Shown: in pieces, positions 481-64,000 of the stretch | Numbering within the stretch: position 1 is the first letter of the stretch | How the letters are laid out: every line of letters begins with the position of its first letter | NCBI GenBank assembly: GCA_026874595.1 | Contig: CM049314.1 | Location: 24,315,729-24,379,728 of the forward strand | From: Sipunculus nudus | Taxonomy: Eukaryota; Annelida; Sipuncula; Golfingiida; Sipunculidae | Direction: 5' to 3' | Length of the DNA: 64,000 nucleotides | Program-made: the position numbers and the translations under genes | Notes under the pieces: model-generated | Seen by the model: the letters and a program-made list of their open reading frames with translations, nothing else | What the model was told of the DNA's origin: nothing | Database searches by the model: none

Positions 481-3400
481 GACGAAATTGTATGAAGAGG
501 CAACAAGTGTCGTGTTCGACGAGATTTTCCCCGCATTAAGAAAATTTGTGAAATTTATTCAAAAGGTGAGTAATTGGATGCTAGTTTTAGCTCAGCTGAC
601 TGAAAGTCATCTGAGCTTAAGCGATCACTCATTTTCCGTCGTCCGTCCGTCCGTCTAGCTGTCTGTCCGTCCGTCTAGCTGTCTTTCCGTCCGTCCTTCT
701 GTCTGTCCGTTAACCAGGCACAAATCGTACTTAATTAAGTTCTCTGTTACACATATCTTTCAAGGTATGGGGCACAAAATTACTCCCAAAATAATTATAT
801 CCCCAGACAAAGTCGGGATACTAAGGTAAAGGTGCCCATGTATATGTGCAATCATCTACCTTTTTGTAAATATTTTTTGTGATTTCTGGCTTCCTCTGTG
901 TATATTTTAAGGATCTATGAGTAATTTTGTTAATGAAAAGTTCTTATAAGGTTTTATGAAGCATGTGCGAATTTATTTATCAACAATATGTTTGTAAACA
1001 CAGCAATGTTGACAAACGGGGGAAAAACGTGTAACCTAAGGTTGTAGGTTGCATATATGCTGATGTAGAAAGGTCACTTGTTGCAAACGCCACTTCCAGT
1101 GATCTTGCTTATCTGACTTGCTGCCAGATGCCCTTGTTGAATTTGTTTTGATTATTTTGGCACCCACATTTTATAAACACAATGATAAAAACAAAACAAG
1201 CAGTTTCTGTTCGATGATATCCATGTTTTCTGGCCTATTTTTATGAAACCTCCAAAGGATTAACTTTATTTTATAATTAAAGGGCCAGATGGGTGATTGG
1301 GCCCCTTTAAGCACGGTCGCGGCGCCGCCGCCGCAGAGATTTCGTTTGGACGCGATAACTCAAAAATTATTTTACCGATCTTTACCAAACTTGACATGTG
1401 CATAGATATGGGTGATAGGACGAAGCCTATTTAAAATGGGGTCAAGACCTTCATTAGGGGAGTAACCTTGACCATGAATATGTCCTTTTTTGGGGGGAAA
1501 TCACACACATTCTTAAATATCTCAAGAAATCTTGCATGGATCAATCAAAAAATCAACTTGACCGAAGATCTTGGGTAGTGTTGTGTTGTCATTTACCGGA
1601 AACTGGAGGCGCTACCTGTTATCCTTTTCTTGTTTTCGTGCCGTTTAATACCCCCATTATTGCCACTAAACAGTACTGTGAGCATTCTAAGTCAAAAACT
1701 ACTTTACAAAATTTCTTTCATATTATATGCAAACAATAGACATGGGTTAGGGAATAATGTATATTTATTTTGGGGTCATGACCTTACCTATGAGAGTGGC
1801 CTTGACCTTGAATATTGCCATATCTGGTGAAAATAACACAAAATCATAAGTATCTCAATAAGGGATGCATGGATTGGTAAAAAAATCAAATTAACCGAAG
1901 ATGTTGGATAGCTTTGTCTTCTGTCTTTTTCTTGTTTTCGGGCCTTTTATTTACCCATCATTGCCACATGACAGTACTGTGAGTATTATAAGTTTTAAAC
2001 TAATGGACAAATTGGGCTGAAATTGTGCATGTCCCTTGACCTTGGATACCTCCATCTTGTATTCAAGACTGGTGGCGCTATCTGTAGTCGTAATTGTGTG
2101 GCGTCCATCCATACGTTTGCTTTCGATGGAAATTGCTTATATCTCCGGAGTGGTTCAAGGTATAGGTCTGAAATTTGGCACGCCCATCCATCTTGAAAAA
2201 TATTTTCGTAAACCAGAGAGGTGGCACCACCTACCTTCCTGTTTTTGTAGAATAAATTAATGCCCTTTTCTGATGAGTGATTTGCCCTATTGGCCTGATA
2301 TTGTGCATATCCATAGATCTTGGACTTCTCAATCTTTTACTCAAGACTGGTGGCGCCATCTGCAATCGTTTTTGCGTGGTGTCCATATGTACATGTGCTT
2401 TGGATGAAAATTGCTCACAACTCCGGATTGGTTCAAGGTATTGGTCTCAAATTTGGCATGGCTATCCATCTCGGAAATTTTATCGTAAACCAGACAGGTG
2501 GCGCCAACTACCTTCCCGTTTCCGTAAAATAAATTAATGCTCAAGAGAGATTCAACATATTGGGCCCCATATTTGGTGAAATATATTGTTTCTTAAGTTG
2601 ATGGATGGACGAAACTATAGTCGCTTACCAGGCGTCAGTATATGCTGCTGAAGATTGGGGCCTATTCTCAAGGGGGGGGGGGCATAAAATATCTAGTTTA
2701 AAAGTTGATACAAAAGCTCAAGTATCCGAACAACTAATGCAGTGTTCACCATGAAATTGTGCATGCATGTTCATCATGGAGTGTTTCATCAGTTTCTGAA
2801 GACTGGTTGCGCCACCTGGATTTTTCGAATATTTACGTTTTTTTTTCTCTACTTTTTAAACCTTTAAAGAGGTGTTCATCCGTTAACAGGGACAAATCGT
2901 AACCATTGGACCTGAAATCTTCCGACTTGACATTCTGTGAGGTCCATGAACAGTCTCCTTGGAAACCTGAAATTAGGTCTCTGTTATCCATATTCTCCGA
3001 GATATGGAGCTCAGAAGTACCCCACCCACCAACCCCCCAGAAAAATATTTTTTTTTCTTTTTATTTTTGAGACCTTCAAAGATGCGATCTTCTTTTGCCA
3101 TGGCACAAATCTTAACCATTGGACCTAGAATCTTCTTACTTGACATCCAGGGAGGTCCATGAAAAAGTCTTCTTGGAAACTTGAAATAAGGTCTCTGCCC
3201 ATATCCTCCGAATTATGCTTCAGTGGAAATGGGGTTACCATCTACAAAATTTGGCATTCAGATGATAAAATTCCTTTTGTGAATGTCTTCTTAGTCAGCA
3301 GAGCGTCATGACCCATTGGTCTTTTGTTACTTTAGAATCTCATTCTCGATAGTATATACGTTCTAGGTTAGTACAGATTTTGATTTTAAGACTGATGGTT

Positions 3401-6067
3401 TACGTACCCAATAAACATATTTTAATATGCAAGTTGTGGACGTTAAGATACTGGACCCGTCAGAAAATCAATATGTCGCAATCAGAGATTTCAGCTGTAT
3501 ATAAGCAGCTGCTGTTTCCACGTTACTCGTCAGAAAAACACTATGTACATAAGAGTTTTCTGCCACATATAGTTGTTTCCATCTTTGGAATGCATAATTG
3601 CGTGCGATTTCTAATCGAAAAAAACTTAAAAAATTACAATAATACTTGATTCGGATTGCCCTATAGATATCTGTCATTTATATGAATTATCCATACAACA
3701 ATTTAATTGTCAAAAAAACGTCGAAAGGAATACAATAAGTATAATATATCTACTTTGCTGGCGGGGCTTATTCTTCCTCCTAGCTTTCAAATTGCTTATA
3801 GAATCCTCAAACTGACAATGCCAGTAAGATTTAAATAATTGAAAATACTATAATCTGTAGAGCTAATGCGCATGCGCCAATGGCAGGAAGTCTTTTTCAT
3901 ATCCAAACAGACTACAAGTTGTCTGTTTAGTCTTTGTGTTTTTCTTTATTCAAACAATACATTCTGTGCCCAATGAAAATTTGTGTCCATTGTCATTTTC
4001 AGAATAAAGGGGAACTTAATCCAGGTACATGCACATGATTTTGATAAAAAGAATAAAGGACTACACAAACGTGTTCCATCCACCTTTGAACACGGTTATC
4101 GTTATTTACTGTAATATCGATTTTGCTTATCAGCGCCACCATGCATTCAAACATTGAACGGTTTAGATTTTTATGTTGCTGTCTTTTATATAATTTATCT
4201 CAATGCACTTAAAATACTACTATTCACATTTGCAATATTTTTTCTTTTTTACATTATATAGTATATACATCCAATATGGATGTCGTACTCTCACGTTATG
4301 TGTTTCACTGAATGTACACAAGATGGCGCTGAGAGGCAGAGGCGGTAGTACCGTATAGCATTTTGTGGTCTGACTGTGTGCACGTGTATAAATAATTACA
4401 TAAAAGAGAATTAGCTATAAAATATGTCACATAACTGAACCAATGCAACACATTTTTAGGATTATATGAATCATACACGGCGAGAGCTTGGGGTGGGATC
4501 ATGGGACTCGGGGGCTGACTTCTACAAAGCCTGCCTCGACTACCACATCTCACTAAATATGACGTCAAAGGAAGTCCATGATCTCGGGCTACAGGAGGTC
4601 GCGCGCATCGAGGGAGAAATGAGAAAGGTACGTGCTTTATAAATTATAGGTTATAATAGCACGCCCGATAATTCCTGTAAGCAAAATAAGCAAAAGTGTC
4701 AAAGGGTTTGATGTCATGTTTTTTTTCTCTCATTAATTCTGTCAGCGGTCTTGAAGAAACAACAAAAAAATTAAATCTAAAACAATGTACAATCCCGTCC
4801 TAATTATCAACATTGATATCGTTTAAGATGATAATTTCTTTATTATATATATATATATATATATTTAGAGGCGAGAAACCCTAAATTTGAAGAGGTATGT
4901 CACTGAGGCTGTCGGCACACTGACAGTGATGTAAAAAAAGGGGGGAAATTTCCCTGTGCGTCCCCGCGGTTAGCCCTTGAACGGTTAGCCCTTGACTGGT
5001 CACGGGTACCATCCAGTTAGTCCCTAGATCCCAATCCGAGACAGTATTATTCAAGACTTAAAGTTTCTTTGAAGATATAGACGAATCTGCATCAATAGTC
5101 ATGGACCACATAGTAAGCACTATACAAGCACGAAAAGCTGAAAGGTCGAGGTGCTCTCCGCAGGTGTCCTCCGCATTAATTGGTCATTATCCCTCTCCAT
5201 AATCTCAATTAAACTCGGCTATTAGGCAATATGCTGTCTGTAATTAACCTACTCCTTTTTTTCAGCTGTACATTCGAACCCAAGTAGGTAACCAAAAGCC
5301 TGAATCAATCGAATGTACGAAATCGGGTGGGCATATAATATGTTGTCCGAGACAATCGTACTTTCGCCTTTGATATATAAGCACTGAACTTATTTGGGAA
5401 TACAAACATATTTATCCTTTCATCATGTTTAGGTTCAGCGACGGCTTAACTTTAACGGGACATTTCCGGAGTTCTTCCGATACCTCCGAGAGAACAGGAC
5501 TACAGACTTCTACGGACTATCAGAGGTACGTACACTAAAAACAGAAAATAAGTTTATGTTATTCATATCTGAATAATTACTATAATTTAACAATGGAACC
5601 AGTCATATGATAGGTCCCAACGACTGCAAATGTAATCGGTATAATTATTGAAAGATGTCGATGATGATGCACTTTTTGTACAAATGAGTTTTGTTTTAGA
5701 ATAAATTGAGCAAGAAGAAATTTTACCAGGATGTATAAGTATAATTTTATTGGGTTAATTAAACTGCTTGATTATTATAATTATTATATTTTATTATTAG
5801 GAAGAAATACTTCAGCGGTACAGAAATATTCTTGTGAAAAGGATCAATCCAAAAATGAGGCTCGTGACCAGCAAGGACCCAGAGGCACCGCTACTGTAAA
5901 ATCACTATTATTATTTTTATTTTTAATAAAGTTATAGTGAATAAATTATTAGAATTATCATTAACTTTTTAAATGCAAAGCATAATCAAATCGATATCTC
6001 TATACTTTTTAGTCACGTTTCTTATATTTTATCTCTAATTTAATTTAAGCAGAACACAAGTTTGATA

Positions 6068-6109
<42 letters not shown>

Positions 6110-9100
6110 ATATATATATATATATATATATGATGTCCGAAGAGAGATCATACATTATAATCCGTTTGTTTCACATCCGTTTGTTTCAAATTCACATTTT
6201 GTTTCCTTGATGAATTTAGGAAAATATTTAAAAAATCACATCGAATCAATGTAGAATAAAGTCCAAATATATTGTTTATTTAATTGTGAGCGCTTACTGG
6301 GGAAATGAACGTTTTTGGTGTTTCATACATTTTTTTTTCTTGCGTCGTTTTGACAGGGTTGTGAAGCAGGGCGCTGACGGACCACCTGCCAGCTATGGCC
6401 ACTCGGGAGTCTTCAAAGTCAACACAAACCACCCAAAAACAAGGTTTAAATAATCATTTTTACTTTAAACAGGTGAACATTTTCTCCAGGGTAAATCTTT
6501 TATGATTTATTTATGAATTTGTTGTTTTGTTCTAATAGTTCACAGTTACAATAACTATATTTAATCGGACAATATATACGGTTATGATCAAATTGCTCAT
6601 GTATCACTTATAATGTTTAGCAGTAGCAGTTTAAGTTGTTGTTGCTATTGTCGAGGTTTGAGTATCAGCTTGACTTATAGATTAAATTCTTTACAAATTA
6701 TCTTATATGGAAAAGGTACTTATTATAACTCATCGTCCCAGGGCACAATCAGTAGAAAAGGTTATGAGAATACTATGTGCTTTGAGACGATGATAGAAAA
6801 GAAATATCCGTAACAACAAACGCACGCGCAGATAAACGTTGTCATGCATTCACATTAAATGCGACTTTTCCTCGTAAGATCCCAAATATATTTTTTATAC
6901 AGTTATATTAAGTATGTTTTGTAAAGTATATTTTCCAAAATAGACAATTAATTGGCAAGAACATATGTTTAATCACATCAGAAAGTGACTACTTGTAACC
7001 TGAAACAATAATGTATGAAAGTAATCTGGAATAAATCATAAATAGACTATCAGGATTATTTTTTTTTTATTATTTGTTATGATTTAAACAAATGTTGATG
7101 TTCATTAACAGGGATACATTCACCATGATGAGCATTGCGCTGCACGAGGGAAACCCGGGTCATCACCTACAGGTAACACAATAAATAAATGATTTTATTT
7201 TTCTAAAAGTTAAACGTGTTGACATTAACTTCCCGGCTTCAGTACCTTTGAGCATTATTTGACAAACACAAAGAAAAAAGAATTTCTTGAATTTCTTTAT
7301 TTCAATCTATTTCATTACCTGATAACTACAATCACACTTCCAGTATTATGTTTCAAACAAAAAACTAGTCATCGCATTTCTGGAAAAGGCTAAAGTCACA
7401 GTTTCTGCAAAAGCAACGCCCTCGAAAACAGTTTCCATGCCACCAAATAAATACGATCCCGAAAAAAAATGAAAAAAAATGAAAGGATACTCAGAATATG
7501 CGCAATTCAAGTTTATATATAATGCCAATATAGAGACATGAATATATGTATACGTTACAGAGGCGAATACATAACCAGGTATATTATACGTACACTATTT
7601 GTCTTGTGTTTACGATCGATTCTGTGACTCGTTCCGTTTTCTTTACAGATATCATTACAGAAGACCCTCGATCTTCCCAAGTTCCGTTTACTTCAGCATT
7701 CACTCGGAATTCACAGCAAACCTTTTGATTTCCCTTCGTACACAGCGTATGTAGAGGTGAGTCAATAGTTTCCCACGGCAAATGCACAAATTGATGACTT
7801 CTAATGAGCCATTATTGTCAAATAATTTGTAATACTGACCAATGTCGGCTGTTAAAACTCACCATTAAATTCATATAAGATAAAATTTTGGCATTAATTA
7901 TTTGAAATATTTTTAAAACTTTAAAGGGGCCCAATCACCTTTCTGACCTTTATAAATGAGAGGTAATCCCTTGGAGCTTTCATATAAATAGCCCAGAAAA
8001 CGTGGATATAACCGCGCACAGGCTGCTTGTTTTGTGTATAACAACGTGTTTATAACATGTGGGGGCCCGCCAAAATCATCAAAACAAATTCAACAAGAGC
8101 ATCTGGCAGCAAGTCACATAGGCCAGAGCTTTGCAAATGGGATTTTGCGACAAGTGACCTTTCTACCTCTGTATATATGCAACCTACCACCTCAGATTAC
8201 ATTTTTCCCGTTTGTCAACATTGCTGTGTTTACAAACATGTTGTTGATAAACAAAGTCTCACGCATCCATCAACAAGGCCTTAAAAGAACTTTTCACAAC
8301 CAAAATTACCCTTATACCATTAATATATACACAGAGGAAGAGAGAAATCACATTTATGTATAAATTCTTTTTCAAAGGCTAGGTGATTGGGCACCTTTAA
8401 TGAACGTTTTATCAATAAAAGTGACCCGAACACTTAGTGACGGTGGTCACCGACAGGTAGCACTATTTGGGGTTCGCGGATCTGCATAAAACATGAAGTA
8501 CTTCACGCAAATAGGGGAAACAACAGCATTAACCACATATTATTAGCTCAGCTGACTTTCAGTCATGCTGGGCTATAGCGATGGGTCTTTGTCCGTCGTC
8601 CTTCCGTCTGTCCGTCCGGCCGGCCGTCCGGCCGGCCGCAGGGCACAAATCATAACCGTAGGGGTTAGGGCCATGAACCCTATGCAGTCTTAGAGGTTCT
8701 AAAAAGATCTCCTTGCAAACCTGAAATTAGGTCACTGCGACCTATATTCTCGAAGTTATGGGGTGTGTTTGCATCCTCCCCCCAGAAATAATTCTTTTAG
8801 CCAAAATTTTCATCCCAAACCTTTCATCTTTCACATACAGCTCACCTACCAACAGGGGAAGAACCATAATTATTTTGAGGTCACAAGGCCAAAGGTCAAG
8901 GTCAAGGTCACAAAACCAACTTCTTTGAAAAGCCTTTGGATGCATTTTAAGCCAAACCTTTCATCCCAATTCTTTGATCTTTCACATATAGCTCATCTAC
9001 TAAGTGGGAGAAGAATCCTATAGATGTTGAGGTCACAAGGTCAAAGGTCAGGGTCACAGGATCCACTTCTTTGAAAAGGTTGTGGACACATTTCAAGCTA

Positions 9101-12100
9101 AACCTGTCATTCCAAACCTTTCAGCACTGATATCGCTTCTCTGCCAACAGGGGAAAAGACCTGTTGATTTTGAGGTCAAAGGTCAAGTTCACAGCACCCT
9201 CTTCTTGCGTGGAGTCATTTTCAGGCAAACTTTTCAATCTATACTTTCCATCTGTCATATATGGCTTACATACCAATAAGGGAAGAAGCCTATTGATGTT
9301 GAGTTCAAAAGGTCAAAGGTCAAGGTCACAATATTGTTCTAAATGCTTGTGAACATATTTCTAGTCAATCTGTTCAACCCAAACCTTCAGTCTTTCACAT
9401 ATGCCACATCTATGCATCACTCAATGTGATTCAAACTTCATATTTATGGGTCTTTTTGCATGAAGAAATAACTAATTGATTTTGAGGTCAGCTGGTCAGG
9501 AGGTTAAAGGTTGCAGGTCTAAGTTATTCACTCATTGGTTGCCAAGTAATTACACCCGGCCAGATGTAATTGATTAGTAGTTACCCATCATTTAGAAAGA
9601 ATCCAGTTGATATGTGGGCAAAAGGCCAAGGTCATACTCATAGGTCAGGTCAACTTATTTTGTAGACCATCTCTATTTTTCTTGTATATATAAGCTTGCA
9701 CTCCAGCTGGTACATCTCACCGTGTGGCTGTAATTGTGAGTGACACTGGTGACATATGACTCCCTTTTGTATCAGGCTATTAAGTGATAAGGCTTAGTGA
9801 TAAGTACATCATTACTGCATAACAAAACACTGTTGTTGGAATACTTCAGCCAGGAATTAACACTATGAGAGTATAGTATTAAGGTTTAGCTACTGATTTA
9901 TGAGATGATGGGAACATTTTGCAGTTTATTTTATGGAATCATAGCAATAAACTTAGTTTCCTAGATATCTGAATATTTTTATATAAATCACCACATATAA
10001 CAGCAAGTGTTTGTTCTCATAATATGTGGATGTGTACTTGATTTAGGATGGCTTTATTTTATTACAAGACTCTTAGTCATGCTTTCTGCATTTCTTTTCT
10101 TTCAGGTTTTGCAGTTTACCAACCCTGCTGACCCCAATGAAAATCAGAGTGATAATAAAAAATATTGGACCTACACTTTTACATTTACATATCTATAAAT
10201 CTGATATGAGCGCCTGAACATGCCTTTTGAATTGTTTTGGACATTCATTACTGTAACATCATTTGGAGAATTTGCCCCAAGTTTGGTCTCTTATTGGAGG
10301 ATGTGTGATATTAAATGTCAGAATTGTCAGAAATCCATTATGTCTGCCATTTAGCCACCTTAGAAATCCTTTTTTATGTGCAGTTTCAGTAATTTTCCTT
10401 CAATTTTTGGTCCGATTTAGAGAATGGTTGTTGTCTGATTTCAGACCTGTGAGAAGTCCAAAATGGCCACCAGGCAACCATCTTTAAATTCCTTTTGATC
10501 ATATTATCTCAAGAACTGTTAAAGTAAAGGCAGTCTGACTTATATTAATGTAATCTTGCAAAGGATTGGGTCAAATATTTCTTAATAAATATTATCATCA
10601 TATATGAAAGTGCAGTACAGTTGGCTTCTATTGAATAAAAATTCATACAGAAGCACCTGTTTCTCAATAATTCTTGTATGGATTTCCTTGATTTTTTGCT
10701 ATATATTTTGATCTTATTTTGCCCTTTGTGGTGTTCCTTTTGAGACTGACAGGTATCAAGTAAGCTATGGGAATAGTTCTGGATACCTTAACAATCATAC
10801 ATTTTCCTCAGACCATCAATTCACTGTGTTTTAACCAGACATAGGTGATATATATTTCTGTTGTCGTATATATTTCTGACTGAAAGTTGTAAATCTCAAC
10901 CCATGATGTCGCAGGTCATGCTTGGCAGCTGAGCGTCATGACCCATGGGTCACTTGTTTTCAGACCTGCAATGAAACTGTCATCTGTGAACAGGGCACAA
11001 ATCGTAACCACTGGACCTGGAATCTTCTCACTTGACATCCAGGGAGGTCCATGAAAAATCTCCTTGAAAACCTGAAATTAGGTCTCTGTTACCCATATCC
11101 TTGGAGCTACGGTGCTCCAAAGTACCCCCAGAATAATGCAAAATTTGATACAAAAGCTCAAGTATCTGAATAACTACTGCATTGATCACCATGATTCTTT
11201 GCATGAATATTGATCATGGAATGTTCCATCACTTTCTTTAGACTGGTGGTGCCACCTACATTTTTCCAATTTTTACGAATTTTTTTCCCTTTTTTCAGAC
11301 CTGCAATGAAACTGTCATCTGTTAACAGGGCACAAATCGTAACCACTGGACCTGGAATCTTCAAACGTAATATCCAGGGAGGTCCATAAAAAAATCTCCT
11401 TGAAAACCTGAAATTAGGTCTCTGTTACCCATATCCTTGGAGCTATGGGGCTCTGAAGTACCCCCCAGAATAATGCAACATTTGATACAAAAGCTCAAGT
11501 ATCTCAATAACTACTGCATTGATCATCATGATTTTTTGCATGAATATTGATCATGGGATGTTCCATCACTTTCTGTAGACTGGTGGTGCCACCTATATTT
11601 TTTTCAATTTTTACGATTTTTTTATGCCCCCGCCACAAAGTGGCCGGGGCATATAGTTTTACCCATGTCCGTGATTCCGTCCATCCGTCCTTCCGTCTTC
11701 CGTCATTCCGAAATCAAACAGTTGTACGGAATTATTTTCGCAATGCTTGCAGATATTGGCCTGATTTTTGGTGTGTGGGCAGATATGGACAAGTTACAGA
11801 TCGAGTTCGCGTTTCGTTCCGGTTGACCTACTTTTGAACATTTTACGCCTCTTTAACTTAGAAAATTTCATGAAAAATATGAAATTTTATGGCAAATACA
11901 CATGTACGGACTTTTTTTCGCAATGCCTGCAAAATTGGCCTGATTTTTGGTGTGTGGGTAGATATTGACCAGATACAGATCGAGTTCGCATTTCGTCCAA
12001 GTTGATCTACTTTTGACTGTTTTACTGCTCCTGAACATAGAAACTTTCATGTAAAATATAAATTTTCATGACAAATACACTTGTACAGACTTTTCTTCGC

Positions 12101-16160: not shown

Positions 16161-16202
<42 letters not shown>

Positions 16203-28919: not shown

Positions 28920-28950
<31 letters not shown>

Positions 28951-28994
28951 GACCGGTATGAAAACATAGTATCCCCGACTTTGTCTGGGGATAC
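26085..28994 (-). mobile_element. GTATCCCC-family HINE-like element with a 288-bp tandem array
   Basis: On the minus strand it starts at 28994 with a GTATCCCC...GGGGATAC hairpin, then a (CGG)10 tract (28921-28950) and a GGTGGCGCCACC palindrome (near 28646). About seven central units follow, starting near 28153, 27866, 27578, 27291, 27001, 26705 and 26418. The 3' end has an inverted TTTGGGGATAC, the perfect hairpin GGCACC-TGC-GGTGCC, then AAGAAATGTCTAG at 26085 before TTTTT. Units alternate as a 577-bp higher-order repeat in 26705-27865. Each unit carries TGACCTTTGACCT-type motifs. No protein is encoded; ORFs inside are repeat artefacts. Confidence 0.85.
26260..28330. repeat. tandem array, about 288-bp monomer, about seven copies
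   Basis: The landmark CTCCTGTGACCTTCACCTTT recurs at intervals of 287, 296, 290, 287, 288 and 287 bp. Copies at 26705-27290 and 27291-27865 are nearly identical, pointing to recent unequal exchange or replication-coupled expansion. Confidence 0.9.
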
Positions 28995-41527: not shown

Positions 41528-41547
41528 ACACACACACACACACACAT
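41528..41547. repeat. (CA)n microsatellite
   Basis: Short CA tract followed by TATATA in the loop of the foldback element. Confidence 0.85.
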
Positions 41548-52000: not shown

Positions 52001-55000
52001 AGATCTTGGATAGCCTTGTGATATGCCTGAAACTAATGGCGCTACCTATTATCCTTTTCTTGTTTTTACGCCTTTCAATACTCCCATAATTGCCACTTGA
52101 CAGTAGTGAGAGCATTATAAGTCAATTAAAATTTTTTTCAAATTTGTACGCATTTTCTTTAAATTTTTATTTTTGAGGCAAACAAAGATGCAGTCGTCCG
52201 TTTACAGGGCACAAATCATAACATTTACACCTAGAATCTTCTAACTTGACATCCAGGGAGGTCCATGAAAAATCTTGACAGCCTGAAAATCAGTCAGTGT
52301 TACCCATAGCCTCTTGAGTTAAGTTTCAGTTGAATGGGGATACCACGTACAAATTTGGCTTTCAGATGATAAAATTCCTTTTGTGAATGTCTTCCTAGTC
52401 AGCTGAGCGTCATGACCCTGGGTCACTTGTTTATTATACCTTGGCTGATCAAATAATTGCAGTGATGTATTAAATTATATATATTATATTATATTATAAT
52501 ATATTATATTATTTCATATTATATTATATTATATTTATCATATGATCTTATATAATATTATATTATATTAACCTCTGAATCCATGATTTGTTAAGGCAAA
52601 TTTCAAATATAACCAACTCTTTGTTGCATCAGACCCACCTGACTACTAACTTCCATTTAAATTCAGCAATTAATATTCAGTTTACCAGTAAATATTCCAT
52701 AAAAATAAAGGCAGATTGTAAAATATGGGTCCATTCATCTCCTTCAAACTTTAGTGATAGTGATAGTGATCAGACTTTAACAGTATAATCAATGAAATAT
52801 CAAGATACCATTTCTCTTAAATATACTGAGACTGCTGAAATATATTAAACTCATATCAAATGGTCTCCATGCTAGTTTTATTCAGTAAAAACTAACAAAA
52901 ATTGTATTATATTCAAGGATAGGAATACAACTGGATTTTAAAAATCACATGGATCTTGTAACTTCAACAGATAGTGTTTTCTGCTTAAGCAAATTCAACA
53001 CAAGTTGATACTGTGTATGGTATGTTTTTGCTTACAGGGAACACTGGATACAGCCAAGGCACAGAAAGAGGAGAGTGGGAGAGACGATGGTATCCTGCAG
53101 ACTAGAACGTATGATCTCAACATTACTTACGACAAATACTATCAAACACCAAGGCTATGGCTATTTGGTTATGATGAAGTGAGTAACAACAGCACTTTTA
53201 GGTCAAGCAACTGTATTCCAAATCTCATTATATTATCATATAACACAATTGCCTCTGAAAAAATATTAGTATACATTTTACATAAACTGAACCCAATTTC
53301 TGGTAGAAAAACATATTTTCTATTTATTTTCCCACAAAAAAAAGAGGTGGTGTGATTTGTTTAAAAGCTATTGGCATATCTATGAGCACTGTCAACATGG
53401 CAGTGACGTCACACACAGGGAAACCCCCTGTGAATAAAAATGCTAGATTTCATCAAAATCTTAGTATTTCTGACACTGTCAGCCCAACATTTTTCAGGAA
53501 AGAATAAAAAAAACATGCATTTAAAAAATTTGGCTGTGACGTCACACTTTGCACAAGCCAATCTCATCAGGGCCAAGTCTTTGTTCTGGATGAAATTTTT
53601 GTTAGTTTTACCAAACATTTTAACAGGCTATTGTTTCATTTAAATCCTGTATTAACCGATCACTGCTCAGATTAATTTTAAACTTCAGTTCTGACACTTA
53701 TCATTACATAACTGATAATATCTTGTACAGTTATAGATGTAAAGGTTAGGTTTGTAATCTGATATCACTCACTGAGAGTCTCACTTTGTCTTCCTGGTCG
53801 TTGAGTCTGTTCATTCTTGTAGATTTTCTTGGCTCCCTGGGGAGCATACACCTTAAGGGGCATAATCAGGAGTAATATTTTGCCTACTCTTCCACACTAA
53901 CAGTTCAGTTTTGCTTTACACAAAAGTTTACCAGCAAAAACATCCCAGGACACAGGCTCAGTACACCTTACATACGGTGGTTTAGCACCTTATTATGGCT
54001 CTGCATTTTGATATACATAGTCCACATGTGTGTGTTTGTTTACCAAAACAATCCCAAGTGACTGGAGGTCCAATTGTGAGCCGCAACACATGGTGTTCCA
54101 GCCAGAAGGAACATGCAATTCATTTTTTGGGCCAAGAAGTCAGGGAATCTCCAGATGACATGTGTTTTTGTTAACATCAGTGATCGCGCCCAGTCCACTG
54201 TTTTTAACACTTGTTTACCGGAGTAAGCAAACAGTTTCAGGGCAATAGTTTTGCAGGTACCAATTCATTTTAAAAGGAAGTTAATTCAACATGCTTTATA
54301 GGTGATTGGGCCCCTTTAACACAGATCTTCATAGATGCAATAGGGTTATCTTTTCTACATTTTGCTTGCTGCCTGTGTTTGACCAGTACCCGTTCACTCC
54401 TGGGTGGAGAGGGCTCACACCAGTCGTAAAGACCTTGGCCAGGAGTGTTAGTGCGGCAGGCAGTCTGATAGGGATTCAAACCCACAATCTTGCAGTCACA
54501 AGCCCTGTGCCCTGACCTTTACACCACCACACACCACAGTTCTTTTTATTTCACTGCCGAATTTTCAACTGTTTCTACAGAGAAAGTTTTGCTGTAGGTA
54601 ATTATAAGTTTTTACAACTGAAAATGAATATGCAAAATATATTCTTGACCTCAGAAAGTCTAGCCCGGGAGAGAGTTCTCTGTGTCAGTCTCAATTTTTT
54701 CGAGTGTCCACTGCTTCAGCAGTAAAGAATTTTGACCAAAGCAAAGTTCTCACATGGTTTCAATACATTCCATACAGTTCCACAGGCAAAACATAATTGT
54801 ATGTGGTGGTTGATAATTTATAGTCTGCCTGTGTGACATGAAGGATTTAATCTGTTATTGTAAAAGCATACACCATACACCAGAAATCAGGAAAGTACAG
54901 TCAATATAGAGCTTTAAACCTGAGGCTAAAATGTTATGAAGCATTCCTGTAGGCCATGCACAATATAATTTCACTCAATTTGCATTAAAACCATTTTGAA

Positions 55001-58000
55001 ATCACTATCTGACCAGGATTAAAAAAAATGGCGTTGGCTTCACCCCTTAAGCCACGAGTGGTACCAGATATCCTTTAATTGTATCCCCAGACAAAGTCGG
55101 GGGATACTGTTTTCATACCGGTCCCCCTGCCGCCGCATATAAATCTTGTTGGCGGGATAACTCAAAAAATATTTCATGGATCTTTACCAAACTTGGTATA
55201 TGTATAGATATGGGTGAGAGGACGAAGCCTATTTAAAATGAGGTCATGACCTTTACTAGGAGTGTCCTTGACCTTGAATAGGTCAAATTTTTTGGTAAAA
55301 ATCACTCAAATTCTTAAATATCTTAAGAAATCTTGCATTGATTGGTCCAAATATCAAGTTGATCGAAGATGATGGATAGGGTTATCATGTTCCAGAAAGT
55401 GGTGGTGCCACCTGTTATTCTTTTACTTGTTTTTGTGCCGTTTAATACCCCTATCATTGCCACTTAACAGTACTGTGAGCATTATAAGTTAAAAACTAAT
55501 GGACAGATTTCTTTCATATTTTGCATATACATAGACATGGGTTATGGGATGATGTTTATATAAATTGGGGTCATGACCTTACCTATTAGAGTGGCCTTGA
55601 CCTTAAATATTGCCATATATGGTGAAAATCACACAAAATCATTAATATCTTAATAAGGGATGCATGGATTGGTCCAAAAATCAACTTGATCGAAGATCTT
55701 GTTGGTGTTGTCATGTACCGGAAACTTGTATCACCACTTGTTATTCTTTTACTTGTTTTCGTGCTGTTCAATACCCCATCATTGCCCTTTACAGTACTGT
55801 GAGCATTATAAGTCAAAAACTAATGGACAGATTTCTTTCATATTATGCAAATACATAGACATGGGTTATGGGATCATGTATATATAAATTGGGGTCATGA
55901 CCTTACCTATTAGAGTGGCCTTGACCTTAAATTTTGCCATGTATGGTGAAAATCACACAAAATCATTACTATCTCAATAAGGGATGCATGGATTGGTCCA
56001 AAAATCAAGTTGATCGAAGATCTTGGATAGTGTTGTCATGTACCAGAAACTTGTATAGCCACCTGTTATTCTTTTTCTTGTTTTTGTGTTTAAAACCCCA
56101 TCATTGCCACTTAACAGTACTGTGAGCATTATAAGTCAAAAACTAATGGACAGATTTCTTTGATATTATGCATATACATAGACATTGGTTATGGGATGAT
56201 GTATATCGAAATTGGGGTCATGACCTTTTCTATGAGAGTGACCTTTTCTATGAGAGTGGTCTGATATTAATTGTTGTTGAAGATGGGGGAGGATTAATTG
56301 TCTGGGGATACTATGGCACCCGAGGTGCCGAGAAATATCAAGTTTAACCACTGCTTTGTATAGCAACATTCTCCAGGTCTCACTACCAGACCTGGCACAG
56401 GGCAACAAAACATAATTAGACCAATTAGGGTGTGGTCCTTATTGTGCATCCAACTCCAAGTTTTAAAGTGTGACACTCGGGGTCACATAGGTCTGATTCT
56501 TGGCCCTGTGCCAGCCCTACAGCTGAGACCCCAAAAAACTTGCTATACAAAGCAGCGGTTAAAACAAAGGAGATATGGAGTGACTGCAGTACATAACTGT
56601 CGCATGAGGAGTGTAGGCTTTGGCTAGTTCATGTTTGAAATGTTGTAAACAGTCATTTAACAGCTTACCACTAATTCTCACTGAGCTTAAATTGGAACCA
56701 ATTTGTGTTTGTTTTGTAAGTGAGATATTAAAATGATCTGCTCTGCTTTTATACAGAACCGACAACCACTCACCATCGAGATGATGTACGAAGATATAAG
56801 TCAGGACCATGCCAAGAAAACCGTTACCATGGAGAACCATCCTCACATGTCTGGACCACCAAGAGCATCCGTTCATCCCTGCAGGTAACGAGTATGATAA
56901 GGTTTCCCCGGACAACTAAATGGACTAAAAGTTCGTCTTCCTGGGAGCAAGTTCTCAAGCTCAGCTGATCAGAGATCTTGCTTCATGGGGTCTCCTTGCC
57001 TGTTATATAAATTCTGAACAGTTGCGCATGTGATTGGGCATAAATCATAAACGCCAATCAAACCCAACGTTACAATAAGAAACAGAACACAGAAATCAAA
57101 ACTGTGTTATGAAGACAAATTGCTCAGGGAAATTAAAAATTAAGACTGATCCGGGATTCGAACCCATGTCGGTGGTGCACATGTCCGGCATTCTAGTTGC
57201 TTTGCTAGAAAAGCTAGCTTCACTAGCAAGACAGTTTAGCCACTTTTATGTGCACCCTGTAACACACCCCCTCTTAAGAGAGTTCTTCTATCAGAACAAG
57301 TTCAATATCTGAGGAGTCACACTTTTTGGTGTACTAGGTGGTGGCAGTGGACCCCATAACACAGTTTACAGGACTCATCAGCAAAACATATGCATCTGAA
57401 ACTCGCCAACTATACTTTGAAGCTTGAGACGTGGCTCCCAGGAAAATAATGTTAAAATATCACCCTTTTCTGTTTTTCCCGCCTTTTCAATATTTGTTTA
57501 TGTATGTAAGAGATATCTCATGAAGTTGTATATGTTCTTACAAGATAAAATGTTGTGAGATGCATGATGGCATATAAAAATCTAGATCATATGTATTCTT
57601 TAATTATTCTTATTTTAATCTAAATTAAATGAAATTGAAGAAATATTAATACTCATGAATTCATCTGATGCAATCCGAAGCTGTTACCTATTTTGCTAAA
57701 TAAATGGTTGTTTTATTATTATTATTGATTTTAATTGCTGTAAATTGATTTATTATTACTGATGATATTCAAATACACCTGTTCTTTTTTTTATTTCTTT
57801 TACACAGACATGCTGATGTGATGAAAAAAATAATAGAGACAGTGGCTGAGGGTGGCGGAGAACTAGGAGTCCATATGTATCCTTTAATCTCTCTCTCAAT
57901 GTGTAAAAGCCAACTTTTAAAGATTAAGGGGTGAGATGCTATTATAAGCAGACTTCAGACCAGGATTTCCCATAATTCTAATGTTCTATTTAGTTAAACC

Positions 58001-59176
58001 AAAGAGAAGAAATGCCCAAACAATGTGTCAATTACAATAAACCTAATAATAAATAGATAATTCATATCATTAATATAATATGTTTTACGTTAATATAATA
58101 ATAAACCTAATGATAGATAATACATAACTGGAATAATAATTCCAATGATAGATAATTCATTTCTAGAATAATAAACCTAATGATAGATAATACATTTCGA
58201 GAATAATAGTAATAAGCATACAGTCAATTTATAGTTATTCACTAATATTCAGGAACAATTACCTTTCATGTTACAAGGTTTTACTTTAGCTCATCCCATG
58301 TTTGTTAAGGAAAGGTAAAATCAGGTAAGATCATTAAATGTTATAAAGGTTAATAGTTTGAAGGGTAACTGACATATCACTTAAAGTAATATCCCTAGCA
58401 AAAACCCTTTCATTCAAAGCCTCCATGAAGTTATTCAAAATTGTATTATAACCATAAAAGATTCGTATCATTCTAAAAGTGGTTCAGTTATCTTTATACC
58501 GGCAATGGTTTATAGCATTTTATTATTACTTTTATACGCCCTTCATATGACAGAATTTTTAATTACCCATCGTCCATCTCTTAACTTTTAGTGTCACTGC
58601 AATAACTTACCAGGGCTTTGATGGATTTTCACAAAACTCATCATAACTACTTAACAACAGATTATCTCGACTGAGTTTGATTATGGGCAATATATGGGTG
58701 TATGTAAATTCTTCTTACAAAATGTGTCACTGCTTGCTTATAATTTTATTTCCAAAATAAATATCTGATTTTGTTTAATGGACCTCATGTTCAATACCTT
58801 AGGGTATCTGAATTATCAATCTTTAACTATAATTATAATTTTAAAATTTTACCATAAAAAAGCCCTATTGTAGATAACATAATTCATAAGTTTTATACAA
58901 ACAATCACTGAAATCACTTTGAAATGTTCATGTTTTCTCATATTAATTTGCATGATATTGCCCTTCAGAATGTTTCTTTATATAAATATTTTCACCTTTG
59001 GAGCTTTGAATTTTATTTTATATGAATGTTTATAGCCTTACCCTTTGACATGTTTCATTATATGAATATTTTTTTCCCTTGACCTTTGGCCCAGGTATCT
59101 GATGATATTCTTGAAGTTTGTGCAAGCAGTCATTCCGACCATTGAATATGACTACACCAGGCACTTCACCATGTAA
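43023..59176 (+). CDS. ATG3: ATG3, E2-like conjugating enzyme for ATG8/LC3 lipidation
   Basis: Nine coding exons: 43023-43094, 47094-47135, 48007-48127, 48662-48772, 51009-51160, 53038-53178, 56757-56884, 57808-57876 and 59095-59176 (stop TAA). All introns are GT-AG, phases match, and the product is 305 residues against 314 in human. ATG3 receives ATG8/LC3 from ATG7 and passes it to phosphatidylethanolamine on the forming autophagosome. Seen here: the N-terminal amphipathic helix [28 protein letters not shown]; the acidic flexible region ([19 protein letters not shown]) that in the family contacts ATG7; [22 protein letters not shown]; catalytic Cys255 in HPC at the end of exon 7; and the C-terminus YDYTRHFTM. 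The start has a good context (ACCATG). Introns 1, 4, 5 and 6 carry repeats. The order of motifs leaves little doubt about identity. Confidence 0.98.
43245..43458. mobile_element. 214-bp MITE with 8-bp target duplication
   Basis: The left end GGCCCGAGTATAGAATCCGG and right end CCGGATTCTATACTCGCTCC are inverted repeats over about 23 bp. AAAAAGGT flanks both sides (43237-43244 and 43459-43466). An 8-bp duplication fits hAT-like or, given the GG termini, Merlin-like mobilisation. It lies in ATG3 intron 1. Confidence 0.88.
43728..46133 (+). pseudogene. degenerate non-LTR retrotransposon (CR1/Jockey-like), 5' truncated
   Basis: A reverse transcriptase can be followed across frameshifts and stops. 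Its segments are the tail of an endonuclease domain (about 43728-43840), [15 protein letters not shown] (about 44510), [12 protein letters not shown] (about 44897), [13 protein letters not shown] and the active-site FADDTK (about 45166). In-frame stops occur, for example near 44607, so it is inactive. It ends with a TAC microsatellite (about 46118-46133), as in CR1-like elements. It lies in ATG3 intron 1 in the sense orientation. Clade assignment is tentative. Confidence 0.88.
46134..47093. other. remainder of ATG3 intron 1
   Basis: AT-rich; no further repeat boundary or RNA gene is recognised before the exon 2 acceptor. Confidence 0.5.
48851..49255 (+). repeat. fragment of another TCTG/TCCG-tract repeat family
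   Basis: TTGTCCCCTGCTTCTGCGG and GGGGGTCATTGATTTGGG precede a (GTCT)n tract and TGATAACTTTCC. This is the same layout as the 5' ends of the Helentron-like families here. No 3' end is recognised. Confidence 0.4.
49262..50775 (+). mobile_element. TAGCTCAGCTGAC-family element, short copy
   Basis: The 5' hairpin and TCCG tract match the copy at 8544, then jump to sequence matching its 3' part (GTAGACCATCTCTATTTTTC, TCTTTCAGGTTTTGCAGTTT). It ends GCAGCAGAGTGTCATGACCC / ATGGTTCACTTG before T. Most of the central tandem units are missing. It lies in ATG3 intron 4. Confidence 0.8.
51491..52429 (+). mobile_element. TAGCTCAGCTGAC-family element with nested GTATCCCC start
   Basis: 5' hairpin at 51491, TCCG tract at about 51550-51565, and 3' end GTCAGCTGAGC, TGACCCTGGGTCA, CTTG before T (52429). 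At 51716 it is interrupted after AATAATT by GTATCCCC...GGGATAC and a GCCGCC tract; the inserted element lacks a clear 3' end (about 52130). In ATG3 intron 5. Confidence 0.75.
52480..52570. repeat. TATAT/TTATA low-complexity tract
   Basis: About 90 bp of imperfect ATATT/TATAT pentamer-like repeats in ATG3 intron 5. Confidence 0.8.
53857..54315 (-). mobile_element. TTAA-flanked MITE, copy 3
   Basis: Ends are GGGGCATAATCA (left, after TTAA 53853-53856) and GGTGATTGGGCCCCT (right, before TTAA 54316-54319). Same size class as the copies at 830 and 7925. In ATG3 intron 6. Confidence 0.65.
54339..54540 (-). mobile_element. tRNA-derived SINE-like sequence
   Basis: On the minus strand a box A-like TGGTGTAAAGG (54516-54526) is followed about 34 bp later by a box B-like GGTTTGAATCC (54472-54482), the spacing of a tRNA-type promoter. 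Downstream, a CCACCCAGGAGTGAACGGG segment recalls the conserved central domain of some invertebrate SINEs; that comparison is from memory. No functional tRNA fold is implied. In ATG3 intron 6. Confidence 0.6.
55081..56342 (+). mobile_element. GTATCCCC-family HINE-like element
   Basis: The 5' hairpin GTATCCCC...GGGGGATAC (55081-55108) is preceded by TTAATT and followed by a GCCGCCGC tract. Three central units of about 300 bp repeat TATGGGATGATGT, GGGGTCATGACCTTACC and AACAGTACTGTGAGCATTAT. The 3' end has ATTGTCTGGGGATAC (inverse of the 5' end), the perfect hairpin GGCACC-CGA-GGTGCC, and GAGAAATATCAAG before TTT, a one-base decay of the CTAG end. In ATG3 intron 6. Confidence 0.82.
57145..57245 (-). 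mobile_element. tRNA-like SINE head or tRNA relic
   Basis: Box B-like GGTTCGAATCC on the minus strand (57154-57164) and a possible box A TGGCTAAACTG (57231-57242). The spacing of about 67 bp is long, as in tRNAs with a long variable arm or a decayed SINE. Not a convincing functional tRNA. In ATG3 intron 7. Confidence 0.35.
58030..58215. repeat. AT-rich tandem repeat
   Basis: Repeated AATAATAAACCTAATGATAG / ATAATACAT units with small variations, in ATG3 intron 8. Confidence 0.7.
58537..58720 (+). repeat. ATACGCCC-family repeat, decayed copy
   Basis: TTATACGCCCTTCATATGAC followed by CCCATCGTCCATC, ATAACTTACCAGGGCTTTG and ACAACAGATTA matches, in order, the copy starting at 62935. In ATG3 intron 8. 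Confidence 0.65.
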
Positions 59177-59955: not shown

Positions 59956-61400
59956 GTATCCGCCAAAACGAAGTTTTGCGGATACTATGTTTTTGACCGG
60001 GTTCGTTTCCGGAGAACTCCTCTGAGACTACTGGACAGATTTTTCCGAAACTTAAACAAATTATCGGGTCACATGTGAACTGGTGCCTAACCAAGTGACC
60101 TTGACCTCTGACCTTTCGTCTCTGCCCAGCGTCCGTTTGTGCGTCTGTTTACACATATAAACCCATATATCTCAGGAACCGTTTGACCGATCCGGAAATT
60201 TTTTTACACAAATGTAGCCCTGGGATAGCTTTATAACATACACAACAAAAGGTGGCGCCACCTGCAACCATGTTTGCACAGTGTCCATCTGTTCATCTGC
60301 CTGGGGTTAAAATCACTCATATCTCTGCAGTGGTTTGACAAATTCACCTAAAATTTGGCATGCATATACATCCTAGATAGCTTTCTCAATTTTATGACAG
60401 GTGGCGCTACTACATTCACGTTAACGCTCCACACATAAACCCATATATCTCGGGAACCGTTTGACCGATCCGGAAAAAATTTTTACACAAATGTAGCCCT
60501 GGGATAGCTTTATAACATACACAACAAAAGGTGGCGCCACCTGCAACCATGTTTGCACGGTGTCCATTTGTTCATCTGCCTGGGGTTAAAATCACTCATA
60601 TCTCTGCAGTGGTTTGACTAATTCACCTAAAAATCGGCATGCATATACATCCTAGATAGCTTTCTTGATTTTATGACAGGTGGCGCCACCTACATTCACG
60701 TTAACGCTCCACACATAAACCCATATATCTCGGGAACCGTTTGACCGATCCGGAAAAAAATTTTACACAAATGTAGCCCTGGGATAGCTTTATAACATAC
60801 ACAACAAAAGATGGCGCCACCTGCAACCATGTTTGCACAGTGTCCATTTGTTCATCTGCCTGGGGTTAAAATCACTCATATCTCTGCAATGGTTTGACTA
60901 ATTCACCTAAAATTCGGCATGCGTATACATCCTAGATAGCTTCCTTGATTTTATGACAGGTGGCGCCACCTACATTCATGTTAACGCTGCAGACATCCAA
61001 GCTCATATCTCGGGAACCGTTTGACCGATCCGGAAAAAATTTTTACACAAATGTAGCCCTTGGATAGCTTTATAACATACACAACAAAAGGTGGCGCCAC
61101 CTGCAACCATGTTTGCACAGCGTCCATCTGTTTGTCTGCTGTGGGATAAAATCACTCATATCTCTGCAGTGGTTTGACTTTTCCACTTGAAATTTTGCAT
61201 GTGTATATAACTTGGATAGTTTCTCATTCAAATAACAGGTGGCGCCACCTACAATCATGTTTATGTGGCAGAGATCCAATACTAATATTTTACATATGTA
61301 ACTCTATATCCCCTTGCCACTCAATCCATGCCTCACTTCACCCGTCCTTCTCTGATTTTGGCGGATACACGTAGTCGCTTGTCGACTACCCGTATTCTAG
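59956..61400 (+). mobile_element. GTATCCGCC-family HINE-like element with about 280-bp tandem units
   Basis: The 5' end is a near-perfect hairpin, GTATCCGCCAAAAC pairing with GTTTTGCGGATAC. Four central units recur with GGGAACCGTTTGACCGATCC ending near 60190, 60470, 60750 and 61030, 278-280 bp apart. Most units carry two GGTGGCGCCACCT palindromes. The 3' end has TTTTGGCGGATAC (inverse of the 5' terminus), the perfect hairpin GTAGTCG-CTTGT-CGACTAC, and CCGTATTCTAG before TTTTT. The left flank ends in T (ATTATTT), so insertion was between T residues. It lies downstream of ATG3. Confidence 0.88.
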
Positions 61401-62934
61401 TTTTTGTATGGTGCTGTATTCAAATTAAGAGGAGCCATACATGCAGGATAAAATACTTTCCAAAGCTTCTCTTGAGCTTTTTCTTTTATAGTTTCATGTA
61501 TTCTTACTATTAACTCTTAATGACACTTGATAAAGTTAATTGTCAACTTGTATTTGATGGTGTTGTAAAAAGTAATACATATATGTAATAGTCATCTATG
61601 TAACTTAGTTTTAATGCTACAGGGATTATCAAGAAATGTACAAACTAAAAAAAATGCAAATCGCCCAAGTTCTATATAGAAAACTAACATTTTCCAGATG
61701 ACACTTCTTTTATACCATTAGCTTCAGCTATGCATTGCCTGGTGATTTACCAGATCATCCGTTACAAGAATCATGTACGTCTCATATAAACCAACTTAAA
61801 GGTCATAATTATTATGTCATTTTGTGACAAACAGTAATTGGATGTTTAATATACCAGAAAACTTTATACATGTTTAGGAAACGGGTATTTCGTCTGCTTG
61901 ACTACTATTGTTCAAGACCATGTATCTAGGCACTGTGTCTTAACACTTGCTCATTATAATACTCAACATTTGTTACAGAGGAAACAGAAGTAAGAAATAT
62001 AAGCGTTAGAAGTGTAGAGCATGGTTACCATTTATATTATTCTCAAGAAATTTAACAATTAAATGAGACTTACCTGTAAGATGAATTTTTTTTTTTTGGG
62101 GGGGGGGGGGCAGAAATTCTTATGAAACATAGCTGAGTATGTAAAGGGTCATATCTCACGTGGACCTCTATATAAAAGGCTTTGTTAAGGCAGATTGTAG
62201 ATGTTGTCTAAAGGAAATGAGGTCTTATGTTGTGGAAATGAGTTGTAAAGTGTTCAGGGGCAGGCAGAGTAAAAAAATTTGGAGACACAATAGCTTAGTT
62301 CTCTCCCTGCCCATGTGGCCTGCAGGGTTTCGTATTAAAATGTGAGAAATGGAAACTTACAGAACAGGAATGAAAACCAGAAATATACACCAAAAGTAGT
62401 ATATATATATATATATAAATATGTTACGTTTGCTGGAATATCTGTACTGCTACAATTATGTTCGCGTGCATCCATTATGATTAATATAATAAATGTCATC
62501 ATTTATGTGTTGTGTTAGTGTGCTTTCTGGTCAGCAGAGGTCAGCACCAGCATATTGTGCTTCTTTAATATAATTCGATTGAAATATATTTCTGTGGTTT
62601 CCTCATTTGCTCTTTAATTGATGTCCTGATAATGAAATTAATTTGATTGTAAATAATAATGATTAACCCATTTATGTTCTAAAAGGGACATATTATGTAG
62701 GCATATGCATTCGAACAATTAAAGCCGTCTACTGTGTTTGGTCTTCATTTGAACAGTTAATAATTTAATTATAATTAACGTGTTTTTCTGTTAATCGGTA
62801 ATGAGAACCTACCAATATACCAACAAATTAAGTCCATTCTCTCTTAAGTTTTAAACAAGTGAAAAACAGAAATTATTGGGATTTATACCCCTTATGAACC
62901 CTATGGAAAACAAAAATTCACAGATATTTTTTAT
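61401..62934. other. intergenic, no gene recognised
   Basis: AT-rich; includes a T-run plus G13 at 62088-62110 and a short (TA)n tract near 62400. No exon of a known family seen. Confidence 0.5.
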
Positions 62935-63379
62935 ACGCCCGTCATATGACGGGAGTATTATGGTATACCCACCGTCCATCCGTCCGTTAACTTTTTGTTT
63001 CGCCGCGATAACTTACCGGGGCTTTGATTAATTTTCAAGAAACTATTTACCAACAGATTAACTCGCCCGGATTCGATTATCGACAACATCTACGCATATT
63101 GAAGTATTTCTTATGTTACTTATGCATGAATGAACCTGGGAATATGGGCCGAATAACTGCATGAATGATTTATATTCAAGTCGTTAATATTGCGACATAG
63201 GCTGCTACTTCAGTTATGGCCAAGAATAATTCTGAATTATACTTAACATGCATTATTATTTTTCTCATTACAAATTAAAGTTATAAGGCAGAACATCTAC
63301 TTCTGAATATATAAATTAATTATGATACCATCGATATCCAGTGGGATACGATTCCTTGGCAATGCCGTAAACCATATTA

Positions 63380-63411
<32 letters not shown>

Positions 63412-63420
63412 CGAACATGA
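62935..63420 (+). mobile_element. ATACGCCC-family element, 5' part
   Basis: The 5' hairpin ACGCCCGTCATATGACGGG is followed by a GTCCATCCGTCCG tract and CGCGATAACTTACCGGGGCT, the same order as other Helentron-like families. The 3' end is not identified; a T10-G21 run at 63381-63411 may mark it. Confidence 0.55.
63391..63411. repeat. G21 homopolymer
   Basis: Ten T then twenty-one G residues. Length uncertain. Confidence 0.85.
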
Positions 63421-63806
63421 TAAAATAACTATTTTAATTTCAAATTGAAGCAAAAGTTTACTTTTTTTTCAATTAAAGCGTAGGTTCTAATTCACAACTA
63501 TAGTTCAAGTGGACAACGATTAGTCTACTGGGGGCGCTTGGGATCTTGATTATATTTGGTCATACTTGCTTTCGTAAATTACACGGAGTGGACAGTGGTC
63601 AGCCCTTTGCCACTAGGTGGTGCTGGTGCCTTTAGTGGTTTAGAAAATGAGAAAAAATAGCCTAATCCTTTGGACAAACATCAAACCCTGTATTATATCT
63701 AAAAGTTCTTATAAAAAAGTTATTATCCATCTTAAATTCCCGCAATGTTGCCAATATTTTCAAGATGTTCACGTGCTTAATTATTATTATTATTATTTTT
63801 AATTTT

Positions 63807-64000
63807 TAGCTCAGCTGACTATAAGTCATCTGAGCTATAGTCGTGGTCCGTCGTCCGTCCGGATGTCCGTCCGTAAGACTGGCACGTTTCGACACCGTTG
63901 GACCTACGAATCTGAAATTCGGCATACAGTTAGATGTCCCCAAAATCTCCTACCATGCCGAAAATTGGGTCAATAGGACTTCGTTCCTTCGAGATATTAA
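63807..64000 (+). mobile_element. TAGCTCAGCTGAC-family element, 5' end at window edge
   Basis: 5' hairpin (AGCTCAG with CTGAGCT), GTCCGTCGTCCGTCC tract, then GGACCTACGAATCTGAAATT and AGATGTCCCCAAAATCTCC. This stretch is the inverse of 32080-32265. The element continues beyond the window. Confidence 0.75.

Follow-up and report, generated by a model that had tools for sequence, protein, structure and literature searches.

What kind of transposon is represented by the dispersed repeats in a 64,000-nucleotide stretch of the Sipunculus nudus genome (GCA_026874595.1, contig CM049314.1, positions 24,315,729 to 24,379,728 of the forward strand; this whole stretch is referred to as the window), and which enzyme would move them? 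Five families were recognised and are named here by their 5′ starts: A (TAGCTCAGCTGAC), B (GTATCCCC), C (GTATCCGCC), D (ATGCCCCC) and E (ATACGCCC). With a probability of about 0.9, they are Helentron-associated interspersed elements (HINEs), which are non-coding rolling-circle transposons, family A having a partner of the autonomous type. A sequence-only reading of the window had proposed the Helentron assignment and this is supported here, for A by ends shared with a Rep-helicase element and for B to E by structure.

The termini in the window were located by fuzzy scans and then by direct reading. As had been claimed, five families of unlike sequence have one common architecture: a terminal hairpin at the 5′ end, its inverted copy close to the 3′ end, then a 3′ palindrome, with a T at the border. 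Subterminal inverted repeats (subTIRs) and the 3′ palindrome are present within the window in A, B, C, and D, and in E in two copies from elsewhere in the genome (L032 and L037). The following copies were identified in the window.

589..3326, plus strand: A1, with 5′ hairpin and (TCCG)n at 589-710 and a diverged 3′ palindrome near 3309-3326
8545..10956, plus strand: A2, complete, with 146-bp central units and 3′ end ...TGACCCATGGGTCACTTG then TTTT; between exons, sense
10957..13856, plus strand: A-type repeat array of 337-351 bp units, host of the D insertion, its uninterrupted units serving as empty sites
11624..12795, plus strand: D, with hairpin ATGCCCCCGCCACAAAGTGGCCGGGGCAT, (TCCG)n, 179-bp units, subTIR CGGGGGCAT, palindrome, and CTAG then T
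26085..28994, minus strand: B, both ends, with 288-bp units (7.4 copies) and 3′ end ...GGCACCTGCGGTGCC...CTAG then T
~30112..31012, minus strand: B, left limit approximate, 3′ terminus neither CTAG nor CTTG
32150..32264, minus strand: A, diverged 5′ end, lower limit approximate
49263..50775, plus strand: A3, 3′ CTTG then T; between exons, sense
51492..52429, plus strand: A fragment with 3′ end, enclosing a B copy; between exons, sense
51716..52343, plus strand: B inside the A fragment, 3′ end lost
55081..56342, plus strand: B, both ends, with 324-bp units (2.9 copies) and 3′ end ...ATATCAAG then T; between exons, sense
58534..58950, plus strand: E, degenerate, right limit approximate; sense; its place between exons depends on the weak exon at 59093
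59956..61400, plus strand: C, with 280-bp units (4 copies), 3′ palindrome TAGTCGCTTGTCGACTA, and CTAG then T
62933..63330, plus strand: E, 5′ part, right limit approximate, hairpin ATACGCCCGTCATATGACGGGAGTAT
63808..64000, plus strand: A4, cut by the window end

Family A 3′ ends, consisting of a GTCAGCTGAGC-like inverted copy, a TGACCCATGGGTCA-like palindrome, and CTTG then T, lie at 10956, 50775, and 52429, with a diverged one near 3326. Central units in variable number, also noted previously, were confirmed (288 bp × 7.4 and 324 bp × 2.9 in B, 280 bp × 4.0 in C, 179 bp × 2.6 plus × 2.8 in D, and 146 bp × 2.2 in A). The microsatellite said to follow the 5′ hairpin was found in A, B, D, and E; the window copy of C has no clear (GCC)n, a tract that is present in other C copies outside the window (L009). 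Likewise, the proposed CTAG or CTTG 3′ end holds for A, C, and D and only in part for B, of which the three 3′ ends are one CTAG, one CAAG, and one neither. Family E, previously included as probable, fits the plan. Its 3′ end is absent from the window and was read in two of six outside copies, L032 and L037, as ACGGGCGTAT ... GCGGTGCTCTTG then T, comprising the inverted copy ACGGGCGTAT, a palindrome, and CTTG before the T; a search with exact GGGCGTAT did not find it in the other four. A 142-bp unit is present in 2.2 copies in the E copy L032, and no such unit array was seen in the E copy L035. A reverse match to ATGCCCCC at window position 2685 was rejected as a D terminus, being a G-run.

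A strict blind structural scan for T, a hairpin, and a GC-rich tract of 3-4-mers was applied to the window and to five sequences from Rep regions. It returned two A starts and one B start in the window, and in one of the Rep-bearing elements described below, that on C1, its sole match was the 5′ border already known from comparison. The scan missed C, D, E, and the remaining copies, and is thus specific yet insensitive.

Exact matches to the 5′-end patterns across the 1.43-Gb genome (plus and minus strand), which are lower bounds, number 9,730 + 9,931 = 19,661 for A, 15 + 8 = 23 for B, 896 + 903 = 1,799 for C, 1,356 + 1,380 = 2,736 for D, and 17 + 26 = 43 for E; since pattern lengths differ, the families cannot be ranked by these counts. 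The reversed pattern of each family has no match genome-wide, therefore the forward recurrence is not due to chance. Family A has approximately one exact 5′ end per 73 kb.

Rep-helicase elements with family A ends

Six-frame Pfam scans, which covered part of the window, identified no Rep there. A genome survey for the Helitron_like_N domain gave 143 matches (150 of 195 candidates scored; some matches are pieces of one locus). Flanking sequence was read at 12 of these matches, and on the upstream side of one more copy (L024), with both borders reached in six. The earlier suggestion that a Rep-helicase element with the same ends be sought was successful for A: three Rep-bearing copies with unrelated flanks, 14.9-16.1 kb long and here called group II, are bounded exactly by A termini.

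C5:42907358-42923483, 16,126 bp: group II copy, both A borders
C1:71789259-71805193, 15,935 bp: group II copy, both A borders
C17:35625479-35640361: group II copy, both A borders

From AGCTCAGCTGAC... through ...TGACCCATGGGTCACTTG, identity between the C5 and C1 copies is 97-98.5 %, and no homology remains beyond either of these points; a T-run precedes the start, and TT follows the end ...GTCAGCTGAGCATNATGACCCATGGGTCACTTG. The A copies in the window carry both end types of group II. Because A is so common that a lone A end near a Rep could be there by chance, the case rests on the coincident borders of independent copies. A diverged copy on C13, with a Rep region ~89 % identical and a 2,420-aa open frame around the Rep, starts with the A 5′ terminus at 9097362. 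No 3′ end was seen for it in the 8 kb read at 9113749-9121748, a reading that leaves out positions 9108750-9113748.

In the C5 copy, Pfam identified Helitron_like_N (E=1.2e-27) and PIF1 (E=6.2e-24), both in the sense direction from the A 5′ end to the A 3′ end. The group II Rep motif VEFQERGSPHIH fits, in the S variant, the Helentron signature (V/I)ExQxRGSPHxH described in PMC4067079. Upstream of the Rep domain, the Rep frames of four sequences (L005, L006, L012, and L013) contain an N-terminal array of charged repeats of ~21-23 residues (for example RQNETYRQKERTADKQQRQTA), which can be aligned in several registers.

Several observations weigh against the assignment. The abundance of A makes any single A end beside a Rep weak evidence. 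The Rep-helicase frames are interrupted in the C5 and C1 copies, therefore activity cannot be claimed for these two. The C-terminal endonuclease, defining for Helentrons, was seen only by eye, as the motifs ETR, GDFN, and SDH; Pfam found no endonuclease at E<=0.001 in the second frame of the C5 copy, and the best matches by phmmer against PDB (E 0.22 and 0.8) were to other enzymes. A DDE transposase in the partner, by contrast, had been named beforehand as evidence against Helentrons; it was looked for in the C5 copy alone, where Pfam showed none in the two frames scanned.

The group II Reps could also be foreign to A, if an A element had captured or flanked a Rep region and the composite had then been amplified. 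A further A 5′ end, inside the group II element at position 1081/1063, is what read-through or self-insertion would leave. Composites do occur: 41 of the 100 C 5′ ends listed have a nearly identical 12-bp left flank (ACCTGTATTTTT) resembling the A-type central repeat (a set chosen by hand), which points to a nested composite amplified as a unit rather than to independent insertions. Both features fit read-through or self-insertion, as known from Fusarium (PMC5148889). Set against capture, Rep and helicase of the C5 copy run in sense between the A ends, both ends are kept in three close copies and the 5′ end in the diverged one, and the C5 and C1 copies each have a single A 3′ end, at the extreme end. 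Captured or not, the unit encodes its own Rep between A ends. Such an origin is therefore considered improbable, and group II is preferred as the autonomous-type partner of A, which takes the assignment of a family with 19,661 exact 5′ ends beyond resemblance.

Going by known Helitron biology, the Rep would nick at the 5′ end, the strand would be displaced up to the 3′ palindrome, and the single strand would then be joined into a T-rich target. HINEs with matching ends would be copied in trans, their central units perhaps gaining or losing copies during replication, and B to E may be served by partner elements elsewhere.

Families B to E: Rep loci and target sites

Also weighing against the assignment, none of the 12 matches sampled out of 143 led to a Rep element bordered by B, C, D, or E ends. 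The borders of the six elements with both ends reached are A ends (C5, C1, and C17) or the ends of a sixth family, F (C7, C11, and C8:80139053). Termini of B to E met in Rep regions are nested or lie outside, with none at the border of a Rep element: group II contains a complete nested C element on C17, C5, and C1, and the flank past the 3′ end on C5 holds a D in reverse orientation. A comparison by eye of the full B and E lists with the Rep list showed no copy at a Rep match, the smallest distance seen being 30 kb, between a B copy and a partial Rep on C13. With no partner in this small sample, the assignment of B, C, D, and E is structural. Reverse ATGCCCCC matches are present inside group II elements (L009 ~1351, L012 ~381, and L013 ~578, positions in the Rep sense) and are perhaps nested reversed D copies.

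Family F has the 5′ end CTTGCCGGAAATCTTCGATTTC... and the 3′ end ...TGACCTCTGGTCATCTTG, and between such ends lie the Reps of a second lineage, lineage I (sequences L015, L005, L003, L019, L016, L006, L020, L044, L045, L040, and L041), at the following loci.

C7:31563967-31589513: lineage I, both F ends seen
C11 ~50.37-50.40 Mb: lineage I, both F ends seen
C8:80126764-80149700: lineage I, both F ends seen for C8:80139053 (7.5 kb around the Rep unread)
C13 near 66.17-66.19 Mb: lineage I, right F end only (C13:66180677)

Lineage I was rejected as the source of partners for a window family on account of these F ends; F was not met among the window termini, in which no F scan was made. The lineage I Rep motif IEFQARGSPHAH fits the Helentron signature, the Rep is antisense to the hairpin-to-palindrome direction at all four loci, and F HINEs adjoin head-to-tail. 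Several kb upstream of the Rep are 92-97 % identical between copies, the Rep regions just 82-84 %. A lineage III Rep (C7:71189229) was dropped as a partner, as homology between copies continued for more than 14 kb upstream with no terminus.

The target sites were assessed mainly for D. The exact C and D 5′ ends listed with positions (100 each) are all on C1. A target duplication had been named beforehand as evidence that would speak against Helentrons; where examined, at an empty site of D and at paired D ends, it was largely absent. The D copy in the window interrupts the A-type array, of which uninterrupted sister units are present at 11137-11432, 12993-13295, 13332-13617, and 2705-2991; the best of these units matches the sequence joined across the insertion at 93 %, and the insertion point lies in a T-run without other duplication. 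Of the D copies paired by position, 44/46 share only Ts and 2/46 share TTTA, compared with 1.8 expected from shuffles. A T precedes the 5′ end in 94/100 and follows the 3′ end in 99/100 of the D ends listed. The T frequency to the left of D is 0.90-0.98 over five positions and 0.30 at the sixth, a sharp enrichment, so that as many as five Ts could be part of the D element itself. For A, a T is on the left in 99/100 listed copies and on both sides in the three Rep copies; for C, it is on the left in the 100 listed rows, by eye and for the left side only. The T at the B and E borders is based on few copies, and duplication was examined for D only. A T-run target would mask duplications of a few Ts, which also counts against the assignment.

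Canonical Helitrons (Helitron1) have a 5′ TC, a 3′ CTRR, and an A/T site. The window families have no TC start and are T-rich on both sides; the CTAG end would match CTRR. It is very unlikely that A alone is a Helentron HINE and that B to E are unrelated terminal inverted repeat (TIR) elements, that is, miniature inverted-repeat transposable elements (MITEs) moved by a DDE enzyme and convergent on hairpin ends. The lack of a sampled B to E partner is what this would predict, and the B to E ends do partly resemble inverted repeats. The repeats are, however, subterminal and asymmetric in all five families, the inverted copy being followed by a palindrome and usually CTAG or CTTG. D shows no duplication beyond T, and the hairpin with (TCCG)n or (GCC)n is a plan common to A, B, D, and E. 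All five families are therefore regarded as HINEs.

Element strand and host genes

The strand of the elements in the window flips together with that of the genes found, in three domains (0-18, 26-35, and 48-64 kb). Exon scans covered the plus strand at 1-24 and 46-64 kb and the minus strand at 1-18, 24-36, and 48-60 kb, with the following coding features found.

4460-18021, plus strand: DUF885-like exons, five pieces, two of them weak (E 0.0014 and 0.0027)
33572-34939, minus strand: mTERF-like single exon
45046-45405, plus strand: reverse transcriptase fragment
48004-59155, plus strand: Autophagy_act_C (ATG10/ATG3-type) exons, the last one weak (E 0.047)

Six window copies between exons are all in sense (A2, D, A3, B 51716, B 55081, and E 58534, the last depending on the weak exon). 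These strand counts exclude an unrelated short interspersed repeat, which lies alone at 7921-8352 (432 bp, minus strand) and, in the opposite orientation, at ~849-1144 inside A1; it has a relative in L014.

Strand data outside the window are from C1 alone, for A to 3.2 Mb, D to 37 Mb, and C to 53 Mb. Of the first 100 A ends listed, 52 fall at 0.10-1.15 Mb, all but one (51/52) in minus orientation, and the seven that follow are in plus orientation (runs z -5.7). For D (5′ and 3′ lists merged within 6 kb), neighbouring copies among those listed are on the same strand in 19/19 cases at 3-20 kb, 15/18 at 20-50 kb, and 15/21 at 50-100 kb, with no agreement farther apart (12/27 at 100-200 kb and 19/39 at 200-500 kb). 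The same holds for listed C neighbours in 4/5, 5/6, and 6/8 cases at 3-20, 20-50, and 50-100 kb. Unique pairs of listed C and D copies agree in 14/16 cases below 20 kb, 12/14 at 20-50 kb, and 17/27 at 50-100 kb, or 10/12, 11/13, and 12/17 without nested C copies; this agreement was reached by 0/99 circular label shifts. With the first 1.2 Mb excluded, agreement between C and D is less marked (25/38 within 100 kb and 22/34 at 20-100 kb, among copies listed).

A tentative and rather doubtful explanation is that the single-stranded intermediate prefers the strand exposed by transcription (non-template, R-loop), in which case HINE orientation would record the direction of germ-line transcription. 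Outside the window, the exons found argue against such a rule, with none in sense and two antisense to the element: an HA2_C exon, which in L036 is separated from the E copy by ~1.3 kb, and a D8C_UMOD match flanking a group II copy rather than at an E locus. Replication-fork direction is an alternative cause; genes are the better match for the ~20-kb flips in the window, and a poor match for the uniform first Mb of C1. An abundance of T-runs was rejected as the cause, as the T5:A5 ratios outside elements in the three window domains (39:26, 21:21, and 19:22) are insufficient.

No strand rule for Helitrons or Helentrons relative to transcription or replication was found among the open-access papers listed, judged mostly by titles and abstract openings, and the portions of PMC13286980, PMC3288121, and PMC10294476 drawn on here contain nothing bearing on it. 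Strand biases of this type are described, in the part of PMC5371812 used, for the bacterial IS200/IS605 and Tn7. Should the rule hold genome-wide, it would limit the times and places at which rolling-circle transposons can integrate.

Comparison with known systems

Elements of this kind are already known, as DINE-1/HINE (PMC4067079) and the oyster Cg_HINE (PMC7492417); the comparisons below follow excerpts of the cited papers. The share of rolling-circle elements is put at ~6 % for the average bivalve genome and at 12 % for Crassostrea (PMC10294476).

The FoHeli/Helitron2 elements of Fusarium (PMC5148889) have terminal hairpins, duplicated 5′ termini, inverted transposase orientation, and tandem insertions; the duplicated 5′ termini resemble the second 5′ end of group II, and the inverted transposase resembles lineage I. 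Unlike the present families they are fungal, end in ATTTT or CTCCTGT, and have no satellite-like centre in the description used. Inverted Rep orientation is also known from D. ananassae, zebrafish, and Chlamydomonas.

The HINE/DINE-1 elements of mite, mosquito, and Drosophila (PMC4067079) share subTIRs, a 3′ palindrome, a TT target with variable Ts, the lack of target duplication, and an autonomous partner with matching ends. They differ in sequence, and the partner described here is 15-16 kb long, with A central repeats, a nested C (in the copies read), and an endonuclease at motif level.

Pearl of bivalves, MITE-like with central repeats and re-classed as non-autonomous Helentrons (PMC7492417), is similar as far as its description allows comparison. 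The plan reported here is shared by Cg_HINE of Crassostrea gigas (PMC7492417), with a 5′ subTIR and inverted repeat, a GTCY/GTCC microsatellite, satellite-like central repeats, a 3′ subTIR, a 3′ palindrome, a T-rich site without target duplication, and many families per genome; the likeness is drawn from descriptions, not from sequences. In the oyster, none of the 10 autonomous Helentrons in Repbase could be related to Cg_HINEs by the authors, and the enzyme that moves these satellite-carrying elements was left open (PMC7492417). What is new in Sipunculus nudus is that family A is linked by both termini to an autonomous-type Rep-helicase element, the link lacking in the oyster.

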